Positions 2,890 to 13,743 of a DNA stretch of 20,372 nt are shown piece after piece. Source of the DNA: a virus; IMG/VR virus record IMGVR_UViG_3300037041_000377, positions 1 through 20,372 of that record; one strand, given 5' to 3'. The notes beneath the pieces were generated by a model that saw only the letters and a list, made by a program, of their open reading frames with translations, did not search any database and was not told the DNA's origin. The translations under genes were made by a program, and so were the position numbers. Position 1 is the first letter of the stretch; each line of letters begins with the position of its first letter.

Positions 2890-4053
2890 ATGCCTATTAG
2901 TCGTAATGAAGGTGAAACTCGTGATGAGTTTGTATCAAGATGTGTATCAAAGGAGATGAACTCTGGTAAGCCACAAGATCAAGCCTTAGCAATTTGTTTA
3001 ACTTATGCTGATGAGTATTTTAGAAAGTCATCTACTCAATCAGTTTCTGATGCTACTTGGTCTACTGAATCACCAATTAATATCAACCTAAAAACTTATA
3101 GAGACTATCCACAAGAAGCACGTAATAACGCTCAGACTGCACTTGACTGGGCTGAGAAAAATGGATGGGGTGATTGTGGAACTCCTGTAGGTAAAGCAAG
3201 AGCAAATCAACTTGCTAATGGCGAAGGTATTAGTGAAGAAACAATTGCAAGAATGGCTTCGTTTGAAAGACAAAGACAAAACTCAACACGTAAGTTAGGT
3301 GAAGGTTGTGGTCGTCTGGTTTGGCTTGCCTGGGGTGGTGATGCTGGTATTGAATGGGCTAGTAGAAAACTTAAAGAGATTAGACGAACTGAAACTTTTA
3401 AAAAAGTAAATCGAGTTTTATTTAATGAAGACTTTGATGTTAATGAAGTTCGTGCTTACAAAGAAATGGGTTTCAAAGTTTATGTTCGTTCTTCTCGTAA
3501 GATTAAAAAGGCAGATAAAAAAGTTTGGAACAAGTTAAAAGAAGCTAAACTAACAGAAGATAATCTCGTTTTCGGTGAAGTTAAAGAACTTGATAAAAAG
3601 TTTAACTTTGACTTACTTCTTACAGGTGAAGATGCAGTATTAGAAATGCTTAGTGTTAAAGGTCAAAATCTTAATCCTAAGAGAGTTTTAAAGTCAATAC
3701 CAGTATCTAGTATAGAAGAGGCAGAAAAGATTGAAGAGGAAGAAAGAAAGTCAATTGACTTAAAGTTTGCTAAGATTTCTTTCTTGTATAAATACGAAGA
3801 GATACCTGGCATACCACCAGCAGAAAGTGGTAGTAGAACATTTTGTAAAAGAATGTTAGCCAATGATAAGTTTTATACTTTAGAAGAAATCAAAAGTCTT
3901 TCTAATGAACACCTGAAAAAGATGTTTGCTAAATATGCAGGTCTTGAACCAGATGTATTTCTTTATAGAGGTGGTTTTTATCGATTACCAGGCACTTTAA
4001 ACACAACACCTTATTGTAGACATCAATGGACTTTAAAGATTGTTATGAATTAA
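2890..4053 (+). CDS. Multi-domain virion/head-morphogenesis-like protein
   Basis: 387 residues in at least three parts. Residues 1-45 (MPISRNEGETRDEFVSRC ... DQALAICLTYADEYF) are an N-terminal tag found on many phage proteins with the pattern E-x-x-x-x-F-x-x-R-C ... Q-A-x-A-x-C. Residues about 72-165 contain a phage module of unknown function: A-x-x-A-L, then TPVGKARANQLANG, ISEETIARMASFERQ and WLAWGGDAGIEWA. A charged linker follows. The C-terminus (about 300-387) has SRTFCKRM, FYTLEEIKSL, YRGGFY and CRHQW, the pattern seen at the C-termini of SPP1 gp7/MuF-like minor head proteins. It is encoded on the strand opposite to the portal and capsid genes, starts 5 nt after the holin-like gene, and ends tail to tail with the leftward operon, sharing TTAA. 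Structural or head-assembly role is inferred; no enzyme motif is seen. Confidence 0.65.
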   Translation: MPISRNEGETRDEFVSRCVSKEMNSGKPQDQALAICLTYADEYFRKSSTQSVSDATWSTESPININLKTYRDYPQEARNNAQTALDWAEKNGWGDCGTPVGKARANQLANGEGISEETIARMASFERQRQNSTRKLGEGCGRLVWLAWGGDAGIEWASRKLKEIRRTETFKKVNRVLFNEDFDVNEVRAYKEMGFKVYVRSSRKIKKADKKVWNKLKEAKLTEDNLVFGEVKELDKKFNFDLLLTGEDAVLEMLSVKGQNLNPKRVLKSIPVSSIEEAEKIEEEERKSIDLKFAKISFLYKYEEIPGIPPAESGSRTFCKRMLANDKFYTLEEIKSLSNEHLKKMFAKYAGLEPDVFLYRGGFYRLPGTLNTTPYCRHQWTLKIVMN

Positions 4054-8834: not shown

Positions 8835-9416
8835 TTAAGAAAGATATTTTTTTAGGAACTTAAGTTCTTCAAGACTAATGTCTTTGAATCTATCTTCAAT
8901 GTAGATATCAGAGTCATATTGCCAAGTCTGTGGATACATATCGTCAGATGCTGCACCATATAATGGGAAATAAATTGAGTTATCACAGATGTAATTAACT
9001 ACTCTTTGATTCCAAAACTCAGCCAAGTTTTGCATCTCCTCACGAATGTATTTTAACTCGTTGATACTTGATAAGGCAGTGTTATCAGAAGTCGCTCTAG
9101 CAACACCTAAGTTTCTAATTTGAATAGCTAAATGAGGTAGTGCAAGATAGACTGTCCAGTAAGCAAGTGCCTTAGAACAAATGTTTATCAAGTTAACTTC
9201 TTGTTGTGTAAAGTAAGGTGTTGAGAATGTAGTTCCTATGTAAAGTTTATACTCTAAGTAGTTATACAAAGGAGTACCTAAAAGGTCTTGTGTGTAGATA
9301 TCCTGTGCTTCTTGAACGAAAGGATAAATCAAATTGACGTCTATTGATTTTCCCATCGGTGTATAGGTTTTTAGATATTGGTCGTCAATGAATAAGTATG
9401 AAAATGTAGCTGCCAT
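8835..9416 (-). CDS. Head-tail adaptor-like protein
   Basis: 193 residues, mostly helical. The N-terminal pattern (FIDDQYLKTYTPMGKSIDVN, then IYPFVQEAQDIYTQDLLGTP) fits the adaptor proteins that follow the portal in siphoviruses: helices beginning 'I..I..AQ..Y....LG..LY'. It resembles the DUF6712-type proteins of Bacteroidota phages, by memory only. The adaptor (gp6/gp15-type) binds under the portal ring and links it to the neck. The gene overlaps the portal stop by one base (TAATG), the usual place for an adaptor. The C-terminus (DISLEELKFLKKYLS) is an amphipathic helix. No enzymatic motif. Confidence 0.65.
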   Translation of the reverse strand: MAATFSYLFIDDQYLKTYTPMGKSIDVNLIYPFVQEAQDIYTQDLLGTPLYNYLEYKLYIGTTFSTPYFTQQEVNLINICSKALAYWTVYLALPHLAIQIRNLGVARATSDNTALSSINELKYIREEMQNLAEFWNQRVVNYICDNSIYFPLYGAASDDMYPQTWQYDSDIYIEDRFKDISLEELKFLKKYLS

Positions 9417-10579
9417 TATTGTTCAATTATTTTTATTGGTGTTAACTCTTCAATAGAAACTCTTGGAACACCATTGAAAATTAAGACTTCTTTAAACGAG
9501 TCTAATATTAACTTTCTCTCAGGTCTAATAACCATATTGTTAAAGATTTCCCAAGATTGTAGTAACTCACTTGAAAAGCCTAATTTACCAGCAACTTGAA
9601 TACCTAACAATTGAGGGTGACATCTATGAGCCGTTACGATTTGTTGAACGATTTGATCAGCAACTTGTAATAATCTTTGGTCGATATTTGTTGCGTCTAA
9701 AGTTTGAATCTCTGGTGCTAAATCTTTACCATCAGCATAAAAGATAATTGCTTTACCAGCATTTTTAGCACCTCCGTGTTGTGATTTAATAGCCTCTGAG
9801 TTCATTCTTCTTTCTTCTGGTGTAGGTTTCTTAAAGAACTTAAATACGATTGATGGTGAGAAACCATTGTTGATTGCTGCTAAGTTATATTCACCCATAA
9901 GCGAATCGGCTTTAATCCATCTCAAAGCAGAGTAATAATTAGGTAAGGCAAAATAGTCCATATTGTTGTCTTCACGTTTGATAAACATTAACTGTCTAAC
10001 TGCCTCACCATTAGGATCATAAGCTTCAATCTTTTTAGGTGGATTCATTCTTGTGTTTGACCAGTTATCAGAGTAGTAATATTCTTTAATATCACCATAC
10101 TCATCTTTTTTACCTGATGCAATTCTTGAAGCATCAACCCAGTTGATATCAACTATTCTTGTTCTATCCATTGAATAGATTATTTCAAAACAAGAATAGC
10201 CAAATGTTTCTTGGTCTCTTGCAACCATCCAGAATACATTGTCTAACTTTCTCCAAAATGGTATTAACTTCCAATTATCAACGAGAAATCTATCTGATAA
10301 TTCTCTTGTTTCATCAAATAAGAAACCATTACCTGCAATAAGTGATGTCTTACCTTCAATGATACTATCGTGAATAGATGAAGAGTTTCTATACTCTAAA
10401 ATATCTAGTGGAAAAGAATTGTTAGGTCCGAATAAAACCCAATCAAATCCTTTTTGTTCTTTAGGCATTGGTAAGTCAATGTTACGCATATTAATCGTGT
10501 CCATTATACTTTCACCTATTGATTTTCTAACCTCTGTTTGAGGTTTGCTCTTACTGAAAAGATTGTCTAATAATCCCAT
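9416..10579 (-). CDS. Portal protein
   Basis: 387 residues. The portal is the dodecameric ring at one head vertex through which DNA is packaged and ejected. The evidence is the characteristic late segment: 'QRLLQVADQIVQQIVTAHRC', then HPQLLGIQVAGKLGFSSEL and FNNMVIRPERKLILDSF, which matches the portal-family core (I..af.vpp.llGi...l....e....f...vi.P....i...). The central region (WVDASRIASG, YYYSDNW, FALPNYYSALRWIKADSLMG) also fits. It is shorter than many portals (400-500 residues), so the clip and wing may be reduced. It begins one base after the stop of the 119-residue gene (TAATATG) and is followed by the adaptor. No terminase or MuF gene is adjacent on this strand, which is unusual. Confidence 0.85.
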   Translation of the reverse strand: MGLLDNLFSKSKPQTEVRKSIGESIMDTINMRNIDLPMPKEQKGFDWVLFGPNNSFPLDILEYRNSSSIHDSIIEGKTSLIAGNGFLFDETRELSDRFLVDNWKLIPFWRKLDNVFWMVARDQETFGYSCFEIIYSMDRTRIVDINWVDASRIASGKKDEYGDIKEYYYSDNWSNTRMNPPKKIEAYDPNGEAVRQLMFIKREDNNMDYFALPNYYSALRWIKADSLMGEYNLAAINNGFSPSIVFKFFKKPTPEERRMNSEAIKSQHGGAKNAGKAIIFYADGKDLAPEIQTLDATNIDQRLLQVADQIVQQIVTAHRCHPQLLGIQVAGKLGFSSELLQSWEIFNNMVIRPERKLILDSFKEVLIFNGVPRVSIEELTPIKIIEQ

Positions 10580-11592: not shown

Positions 11593-12498
11593 TTATGAGT
11601 AAAGAACGATTTCAGCTCCGTAAAGGTAGTTAACACCAAACTTCAAAGATGTTACGAATCTTTCAGTTCTAGCACCTGAGATGTTTCTTTGTGGGATAAG
11701 TAAGACTTCGTCCCAATCAGAAGTTAAGTCAGTTAAGAAGAATACTTTATCAGAGTTAAATGCAACCATTTGTTTTGCAGTTAATCCTGATGTAGGAATT
11801 AATCTATAACCTAAGTAGTTTAACTCTTTGTCACCTACTAAGAACAAACCACCTTGTGTAGATGCTTGTGCTTGTTTGTAAGAGAATGCTACTTCTTGTG
11901 AAACAAAGATTTTAAAGTTAGCTTGGTCTCTTACTTGAGCTGGTACAGCTTCTAAAACTCTGTTTAATTCACCAACAACGTTTGCTGATGTGATTGAAGA
12001 TGCCGTAGCAGTTACATCAATTACAGTTGCGTCAGCTAATAATTGTTTGATTAAGCCATCACACAAGCTAAGTGGGTAAGAAGCAGTTCCTGTATCACCT
12101 TTAAACATTGTGATTTCTAAGTCAGATGCTACTTTTGTAGCAACATAATCAACTACGAACTCAGCATAAGATGCTGGCATAACTTCTTCTGAGTTAGAAC
12201 CTGCTCTTAATTGTAAAGATAAGTAATTTGCTTCGAAAGTTGTAGCACAATACTCAAGATTTACCTTAAGATCGCAAACTTCCATTGTTTTTTGGTTAAG
12301 TGTACCTTCACCAGTTGCTGAGAACGAACAGTCGTCAGCTTGTAAAATGTTACCTAAATCCGAATATGCTAACTTGATTTTTGATTTCACGTTAGGAACC
12401 AAAGTTAACTCGTTTTTAGCAACACCAGTAGTAAGAACTTTCTTGAAGAATCCTTCAGCGTCCTTACCGTAAAATGTAGTATTATCAACTAATGCCAT
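11593..12498 (-). CDS. Major capsid protein (HK97-like)
   Basis: 301 residues. The N-terminus (VDNTTFYGKDAEGFFKKVLT) and the C-terminal half (IFVSQEVAFSYKQAQ, GDKELNYLGYRLIPTSGL, MVAFNSDKVFFLTDL, LKFGVNYLYGAEIV) fit HK97-fold capsid subunits, whose C-terminal strand order is 'y.g..vv....lp...'. Length is typical of a small major capsid protein without a large delta domain. Position immediately after the protease-scaffold gene is the strongest support. It has its own A-rich leader of 63 nt and precedes the tube-like gene, and should be the most abundant product here. Called from pattern and context. Confidence 0.8.
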   Translation of the reverse strand: MALVDNTTFYGKDAEGFFKKVLTTGVAKNELTLVPNVKSKIKLAYSDLGNILQADDCSFSATGEGTLNQKTMEVCDLKVNLEYCATTFEANYLSLQLRAGSNSEEVMPASYAEFVVDYVATKVASDLEITMFKGDTGTASYPLSLCDGLIKQLLADATVIDVTATASSITSANVVGELNRVLEAVPAQVRDQANFKIFVSQEVAFSYKQAQASTQGGLFLVGDKELNYLGYRLIPTSGLTAKQMVAFNSDKVFFLTDLTSDWDEVLLIPQRNISGARTERFVTSLKFGVNYLYGAEIVLYS

Positions 12499-12561: not shown

Positions 12562-13062
12562 TTACTTCTTAAGAGTTCTCGCAAACTCCTTAATTCTTGC
12601 CTCATTTTCAGCAAACTTTGTGTCAAGTGGTCTAACTACTTCTGGTTTTTTGATACTTCCTGAACCAGGTACTGAACTAAACTTCTCTTTAACTTCATTT
12701 CTGAAAGAGTTCATCTCTTCTTTCTTTTCGTCAAGTGTTGATTTTAAACGAGTGATTTCTTCCATTAACTCAGCAAATCTCGCATCAATCATACCTGATA
12801 CTTCTTCAGCAGTAAGTGCCTGAGCTGCTGGTACGTCAGCTAAATCCTCATCTTCTTCAATAGAAGATACTTGAATCTCAACAACTTCTCCATTTCTTGT
12901 AGTTACAACAGTACCGTCTTCTAATACGTGATCTGCATCAGGAGCCAACTCAGTAAGAGCTTCATCTACATAGATAATTGTACCCATACCGAACTCACCG
13001 TCCCAGTAAACAGTAACACCACCTTTAAGAACAGCTGTTCCTAATTTGATTTCTTTTTCCAT
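12562..13062 (-). CDS. Candidate internally started scaffold product
   Basis: In frame within the protease gene, ATG at 13062-13060 (M228) would give a 166-residue protein made of the small beta domain and the coiled coil without the protease. Its leader, ACTAAAAAATAAAGAACAAATA then ATG, has the same A-tract-plus-spacer layout as the leaders of the 13743 and 18228 genes in this window (spacer 10 against 11 nt). The design mirrors lambda C/Nu3, where the scaffold is made from an internal start of the protease gene. The A-rich stretch also encodes Lys/Asn/Gln, so it could be coincidental. Confidence 0.45.
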   Translation of the reverse strand: MEKEIKLGTAVLKGGVTVYWDGEFGMGTIIYVDEALTELAPDADHVLEDGTVVTTRNGEVVEIQVSSIEEDEDLADVPAAQALTAEEVSGMIDARFAELMEEITRLKSTLDEKKEEMNSFRNEVKEKFSSVPGSGSIKKPEVVRPLDTKFAENEARIKEFARTLKK

Positions 13063-13743
13063 TATTTGTTCTTTATTTTTTAGTGATAATTGTAAGTCTG
13101 CCAGTATTTCAACTGAGAAACCTTTTACTTCATCATTCTTAACTTTACTCATCCAGAAGTTTTCATCTTTAATTTTGACTGCACCAAACCAAGTACCTTC
13201 AGGTAAATCAAAACCTAAGTTTTTAGACTTATCTGATTCGCCTTCTATAATCCAGTTCTGTGAAACAAAAGCATCGACCATTTCTTCAGTATGCATTAGA
13301 TTAATATTTTTAGAGTTTAAGTCTTCATTAAACTTTGTTGCAATCTTTTCGATTTCAGCAGCAGAGAAACGAACATAGTATTCACCGTTCTTTTCATCTT
13401 GTCTGTAAATAAGCATGTTAGGAATCAAGAATGGTCCGTATAACATTTGTTTTTCTTTATCTGCTTTAAATTGTATGTTAAGGTTTGTAGGTGCTTCTGG
13501 TTTACCATCTACGATAGGAACGCAGTTTGGTACTTCTTTACCATCAAGTATCTTCATACCTACTTGCACATAACCTTCATAACAAGGATCTTCACCTTCT
13601 AAACATTCAGTACAATCCTCCTGTTTTTTCAATTTAATCCAGTCAACGCCAATTGCAGGTTCATCAACAAGTGATATTCTACCTACACCTTGCTTTAAGT
13701 CATCATCTTGTAAGACGATATCGTATATCGGTAATTTACTCAT
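12562..13743 (-). CDS. Prohead protease (XkdF-like) fused to scaffold
   Basis: 393 residues. Residues about 1-215 are an XkdF-like prohead serine protease: N-terminal GRISLVDEPAIG, the central LYGPFLIPNMLIYR, NLMHTEEMVDAFVSQNWIIE with H151, GTWFGAVKI (183-191), and VKGFSVEI with S210 as the putative nucleophile. An insert at about 43-90 carries four Cys (C44, C47, C54, C74) and VGMKILDGKEVPNCVP, a segment common in Bacteroidota phage proteases. Residues about 228-290 form a small beta domain (GTAVLKGGVTVYWDGEFGMG ... VLEDGTVVTT). Residues about 310-393 are a charged coiled coil ending in a basic tail, typical of scaffolds. The enzyme cleaves scaffold and capsid tails during head maturation. 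It precedes the major capsid gene, as in lambda and HK97. An internal start at M228 is listed separately. Confidence 0.8.
   Translation of the reverse strand: MSKLPIYDIVLQDDDLKQGVGRISLVDEPAIGVDWIKLKKQEDCTECLEGEDPCYEGYVQVGMKILDGKEVPNCVPIVDGKPEAPTNLNIQFKADKEKQMLYGPFLIPNMLIYRQDEKNGEYYVRFSAAEIEKIATKFNEDLNSKNINLMHTEEMVDAFVSQNWIIEGESDKSKNLGFDLPEGTWFGAVKIKDENFWMSKVKNDEVKGFSVEILADLQLSLKNKEQIMEKEIKLGTAVLKGGVTVYWDGEFGMGTIIYVDEALTELAPDADHVLEDGTVVTTRNGEVVEIQVSSIEEDEDLADVPAAQALTAEEVSGMIDARFAELMEEITRLKSTLDEKKEEMNSFRNEVKEKFSSVPGSGSIKKPEVVRPLDTKFAENEARIKEFARTLKK

Follow-up and report, generated by a model that had tools for sequence, protein, structure and literature searches.

A very probable in-frame start for a free scaffold protein inside a phage capsid protease gene

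Introduction

Where does a phage encode its scaffold when the gene for its capsid protease runs almost directly into the gene for its capsid? In lambda, the 3' part of the gene for capsid protease C, upstream of the capsid gene, is re-used in frame to make a free scaffold, Nu3. The question arises from a stretch of viral DNA of 20,372 nucleotides (positions 1 to 20,372 of IMG/VR record IMGVR_UViG_3300037041_000377), hereafter the window, in which a capsid protease gene lies upstream of and adjoins the gene for the major capsid protein (MCP), with 63 nt from stop to MCP start. A preliminary description of this DNA had found no separate scaffold gene, and indeed there is none between protease and MCP, where related phages have one. 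The same description proposed that an internal methionine codon, M228, begins a nested scaffold gene in the manner of lambda C/Nu3. That proposal is supported by the conservation of the Met, of its leader and of the synonymous sites around it, and from sequence evidence M228 is very probably a real in-frame start of a nested gene for a free scaffold. The features on which the argument draws are these:

12562-13743, minus strand: full-length protease-scaffold gene, an ORF of 393 aa that begins MSKLPIYDIV
13489-13596, minus strand: CYEGYVQVGMKILDGKEVPNCVPIVDGKPE module, aa 50-85; the N-terminus of most relatives is without it
13099-13470, minus strand: XkdF/S78_2 protease domain, aa 92-215 (Pfam PF14550 Peptidase_S78_2, E 4.7e-15)
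13063-13081, minus strand: internal leader, -19 to -1, AAAAAATAAAGAACAAATA, overlapping codons 222-227
12562-13062, minus strand: predicted nested gene for a free scaffold of 166 aa from M228 (Met228 in 30/30; profile match to standalone proteins)
12874-13050, minus strand: small domain, aa 232-290, IKLGTAVLKGGVTVYWDGEFGMGT...DGTVVTTRNGEVVEI, kept in standalone genes (the "beta domain" of the preliminary description, a sequence reading)
12673-12813, minus strand: coiled-coil-like helical stretch, aa 311-357, likewise a sequence reading, with weak matches to coiled-coil families
11593-12498, minus strand: MCP, the next gene downstream (phrog_1623 virion structural protein, E 1.1e-16)

The protease gene and its parts

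The N-terminal part of the 393-aa gene is, by its domain match, an XkdF-type capsid-maturation serine protease. Its protease residues H151 (13293-13291) and S210 (13116-13114) are invariant in an alignment of 28 sequences, and the Pfam domain ends at aa 215. M228 (ATG at 13062-13060, directly preceded by TCACTAAAAAATAAAGAACAAATA) does stand, as had been described, between the protease and the tail.

What the tail does is suggested by its place more than by its matches. It hits coiled-coil families weakly in a Pfam search, and it gives weak matches of coiled-coil type in a profile search of the PDB, among them a GCN4 fusion (E 0.055). The same Pfam search found no significant match to a recognised scaffold family, that to the P2 GPO scaffold having an E of 0.012. 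Judging from the slot it occupies, its size, its helical stretch, the architecture of the gene and the lack of any other candidate within this record of 20,372 bases, the tail is probably the scaffold. The same adjacency to MCP is seen in the relatives, except that in one (L013; L003 1416-2132) an extra gene for 238 aa lies between the protease-scaffold gene and MCP.

Two side observations can be added here. A module of about 35 aa, CYEGYxxVGMKxxDGKxVPNCVPVxDGKPE, lies near the N-terminus of the window protein (13489-13596) and between the small domain and the helical tail in other relatives (L005, L006, L008), and it is found in unrelated phage proteins too. Elsewhere in the window, the C-terminal part of a gene at 2890-4053, plus strand, is similar to residues 446-497 of phrog_33693, a portal family (E 0.0027). 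The portal gene itself is at 9416-10579, on the opposite strand, so the gene at 2890-4053 is read as a separate one for a C-terminal piece of a portal.

A start signal within the coding sequence

The relatives that share the fused layout were drawn from two scans of viral contigs and form a clade set of 30 non-redundant sequences, the window's included; they are about 45-69% identical over the best segment. Met228 is kept in all 30. It is also invariant in a 28-sequence alignment that takes in two members only 28-29% identical, and it is found again in a distant fused clade considered below. Conservation of the Met by itself was rejected as proof of a start, M318 and M327 in the helical tail being likewise present in 30/30. 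In one relative (L038, 2489-3514) the small domain that follows the junction Met is gone and the SLTAQEVSLMIDARFAELMNEIT helix is doubled, yet the Met and its leader are retained.

The leader says more. A scoring matrix was trained on 83 real leaders, with the nested site left out, and by this measure the M228 leader scores 8.72, fifth among the 364 minus-strand ATGs of the window. The only ATGs to score above it are the starts of MCP (whose leader, CAAAAAATAATTAAATAAAAA, has the top score in the window), the tail gene, the protease itself (11.64) and the 8833 gene. The M228 site is the best-scoring ATG inside the gene in 30/30 sequences, the remaining in-gene ATGs having a mean score of -18 (SD 8) across the 30 relatives. 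The spacing agrees as well: the A-run starts at -19 in 25 of the 30 nested leaders, and at -19 or -20 in most leaders of the MCP, tail and protease genes, and the nested-leader motif C/T-TAAAAAATAAAGAACAAAnnATG resembles the leaders of late genes, for example ACTACAAAAAATAAATTATAAAAAATG before MCP. The preliminary description had likened the M228 leader to real leaders nearby in its A-tract and spacing, and the likeness is borne out. Even in the diverged members (L037-L043), where the residues of the tract or its frame are altered, A6-8 T is kept some 13-14 nt before the ATG, and in L039-L042 it is the very reading frame of the tract that differs. Homologues without the Met or the A-rich leader, which would have told against the proposal, did not turn up.

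Initiation independent of a Shine-Dalgarno sequence has been measured in Flavobacterium johnsoniae, where an A-rich leader, an A at -3 and at -12 and low structure are favoured (PMC6847099). The nested leader is without a Shine-Dalgarno sequence, is A-rich and is little structured, as befits initiation of the Bacteroidota type (PMC6847099), save that C and T predominate at positions -6 and -13, in place of A. An A is found at -12 in 30/30 nested leaders and at -3 in 26/30, the latter being commoner than in the leaders of the protease (13/23). The predicted folding energy of the internal start region is 0 in most members, and in most it is the least structured site of the gene.

Selection on bases rather than residues

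Is the A-rich leader kept only for the amino acids that it encodes? Codons 222-231 have undergone 2 synonymous changes where 31.7 would be expected (Poisson P 9e-12), the lowest of 282 codon windows, as counted on a tree built without this stretch. By pairwise codon identity, an independent measure, codons 222-227 stand at the bottom of 304 windows, at 0.026 against a median of 1.04, and the next unrelated window by this measure is at 0.47 of expectation. The first three codons of the block, 222-224 (K-N-K), show 0 synonymous changes against 10.3 expected (P 3e-5). Residues 225-231 have undergone about 48 amino-acid changes, yet their codons remain A-rich, so the synonymous constraint is not due to the protein, and what the amino acids require falls far short of explaining the conservation of the leader. 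Synonymous change proceeds at a normal rate on either side, in codons 212-221 and from codon 234 onward. What is frozen, then, is a block of 30 bases that begins near -19 relative to the ATG and ends near +12, and so far as extent can tell, this block is that of an initiation region.

A second fused clade (L046 and its relatives; 11 non-identical sequences, about 25-29% identical to the window protein) behaves in the same way: of its 321 windows, the top three for constraint cover the codons immediately ahead of the matching Met. A Met is found at the junction in L171 and in Nonlabens phage P12024L as well.

The same module as a separate gene

In two sister lineages (the L044 and L064 groups), comprising 49 non-redundant relatives, the homologous C-terminal module is a gene of its own. 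Here the protease gene ends once its domain is complete, and a gene of about 190-220 aa comes next, beyond the stop and 12-62 nt. Where the downstream region was read, the order is protease, module, MCP, the same as in the window but with two genes in place of one. When profiles were compared by hhalign, the predicted nested product matched the standalone proteins of the two groups at 98.5% and 99.2% (E 2.5e-15 and 1e-19), and the alignment takes in all of it but the first one or two residues. A point on the other side is that the standalone proteins have about 30 extra N-terminal residues, which are missing from the nested product. A standalone gene in the same slot, matched over the full length, argues that the piece after M228 is a unit of its own. 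A search of a phage collection with the standalone scaffold as query gave no match.

Four members of the L064 group that had appeared to be fused were rejected as scaffold fusions, their C-terminal extensions being cargo domains; L158 was left out of the classification. In these four (L082, 2495-3946; L127-L129) a linker of the GGPGSGR type joins the capsid protease, in frame, to a cargo domain at its C-terminus; the domain is a Zeta toxin in L082 (PF06414, E 1.3e-29) and RelA/SpoT-like in L128 (E 0.004). As close relatives are without the domain, the site has the look of a slot for variable cargo on a capsid protein. There is a further variable slot after the first 40 or so residues of the protease gene, which holds long inserts with motifs of the ECLGCPPNGDGTRVNGEPDGRC type (L007 3989-4717, L008 841-2811, L035 2492-3220, L039 642-2453, L042 1025-3556). 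Most of these inserts end in a stop, with the protease restarting at its own Met.

Alternative readings of the conserved tract

It might be supposed that no second start is needed. In P2, gpO joins an N-terminal protease and a C-terminal scaffold in one self-cleaving polypeptide (PMC7552001), and the fusion here, which also holds the whole tail, could in the same way do both jobs, with free scaffold, if any, arising by self-cleavage. No internal start is described for gpO in that paper (PMC7552001), whereas here a start signal is conserved, one that a fusion of the gpO kind would not be expected to contain. Nor does such a fusion explain why synonymous change should be frozen in the codons of a variable linker, right up to an invariant Met whose leader is of the start type, or why a second clade should show the same constraint. 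A gpO-like protein acting alone is improbable.

Other readings give the tract a different task. The A6T tract could be a programmed slippery site, at which a -1 slip on A AAA AAT would lead immediately to TAA and yield free protease, and a TAA is in fact present in the -1 frame at -13, directly after the A-run, in 25/30 relatives. It is asking much of a termination signal, however, that the tract be in another frame in L039-L042, with no -1 stop nearby, that the stop come later in L038, and that the same AAAAAATAA be present in the non-coding leaders of the MCP, tail and protease genes. Frameshifting, moreover, needs neither the Met nor constraint downstream of it, and this reading is scarcely credible. 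Equally hard to credit is a promoter element in the tract, from which a short transcript of scaffold and MCP would begin inside the protease gene. A-rich tracts do recur ahead of several late genes, but the A-run keeps a near-constant distance (-19/-20) to the ATGs of the capsid, tail, protease and nested starts, codons 212-221 are unconstrained and so leave no room for promoter boxes plus a leader, and the resulting RNA would in any event be used for that same nested start. The tract might also do double duty, as nested leader and as slippery site, in most members (25 have the stop right after the tract). If it did, the fusion, a free protease and a free scaffold would all come from a single gene, but this is very unlikely.

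Two proteins from one reading frame

I propose, as highly likely, that one region of mRNA gives rise to two proteins in one frame: a protease-scaffold fusion and a free scaffold of 166 aa from M228. Ribosomes that start at 13743 would make the full-length fusion. The free scaffold would come from ribosomes that begin at M228 (13062), led there by an A-rich, unstructured leader of the kind with which Bacteroidota initiate independently of a Shine-Dalgarno sequence. Since both products share the C-terminal tail, fusion and free scaffold probably assemble together within the prohead; the shared tail would recruit the protease to the scaffold core, and the free form would add more scaffold, as with UL26/UL26.5 and lambda C/Nu3. 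On the surplus of scaffold over protease that the preliminary description envisaged, the leaders point both ways: that of the protease scores slightly higher (11.64 against 8.72), but the nested leaders more often have the favourable A at -3 (26/30 against 13/23).

The likeness to lambda lies in the layout, a protease and scaffold in frame upstream of the capsid gene, as it is read here from sequence. Lambda C belongs to a different protease family from the XkdF/S78_2 type found here, and the A-rich leader without a Shine-Dalgarno sequence is a further difference; no sequence match was seen between the window gene and lambda C/Nu3. Lambda C and Nu3 form an initiator complex with the portal protein B (PMC3224144). 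The herpesvirus pair UL26/UL26.5 offers a second parallel, in that a short protein identical to the C-terminal part of a long protease-scaffold is the major form, both acting as scaffold (PMC12474303). A long protease-scaffold and a shorter C-terminal product are what is predicted here, but the herpesvirus is a virus of eukaryotes, with a separate gene for its short form, and the sequences are unrelated. Nearer at hand is gene 01 of Nonlabens phage P12024L (phrog_24921), in which a protease fused to a tail immediately precedes MCP and the junction has a Met, though this gene is only about 33% identical over the matched part and is annotated as hypothetical, in a family of unknown function.

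The type of leader and the Nonlabens phage relative suggest that the host belongs to the Bacteroidota. Two scans of genome collections found no relatives and no host genome carrying one, and the literature searched contained no report of a nested phage scaffold in this phage group.

A few model viruses are known to have nested scaffolds; the one predicted here belongs to phages that form an uncharacterised group and whose protease is of a different type. The leader, independent of a Shine-Dalgarno sequence, would double as protein-coding sequence, and the 30 frozen bases would mark out, through selection, the leader positions on which initiation depends in these phages. The relatives with two separate genes provide a natural series between the separate and the nested states. 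Finally, it is suggested that annotated capsid proteases of this kind (phrog_24921, of unknown function) may conceal the scaffold gene that seems to be missing.
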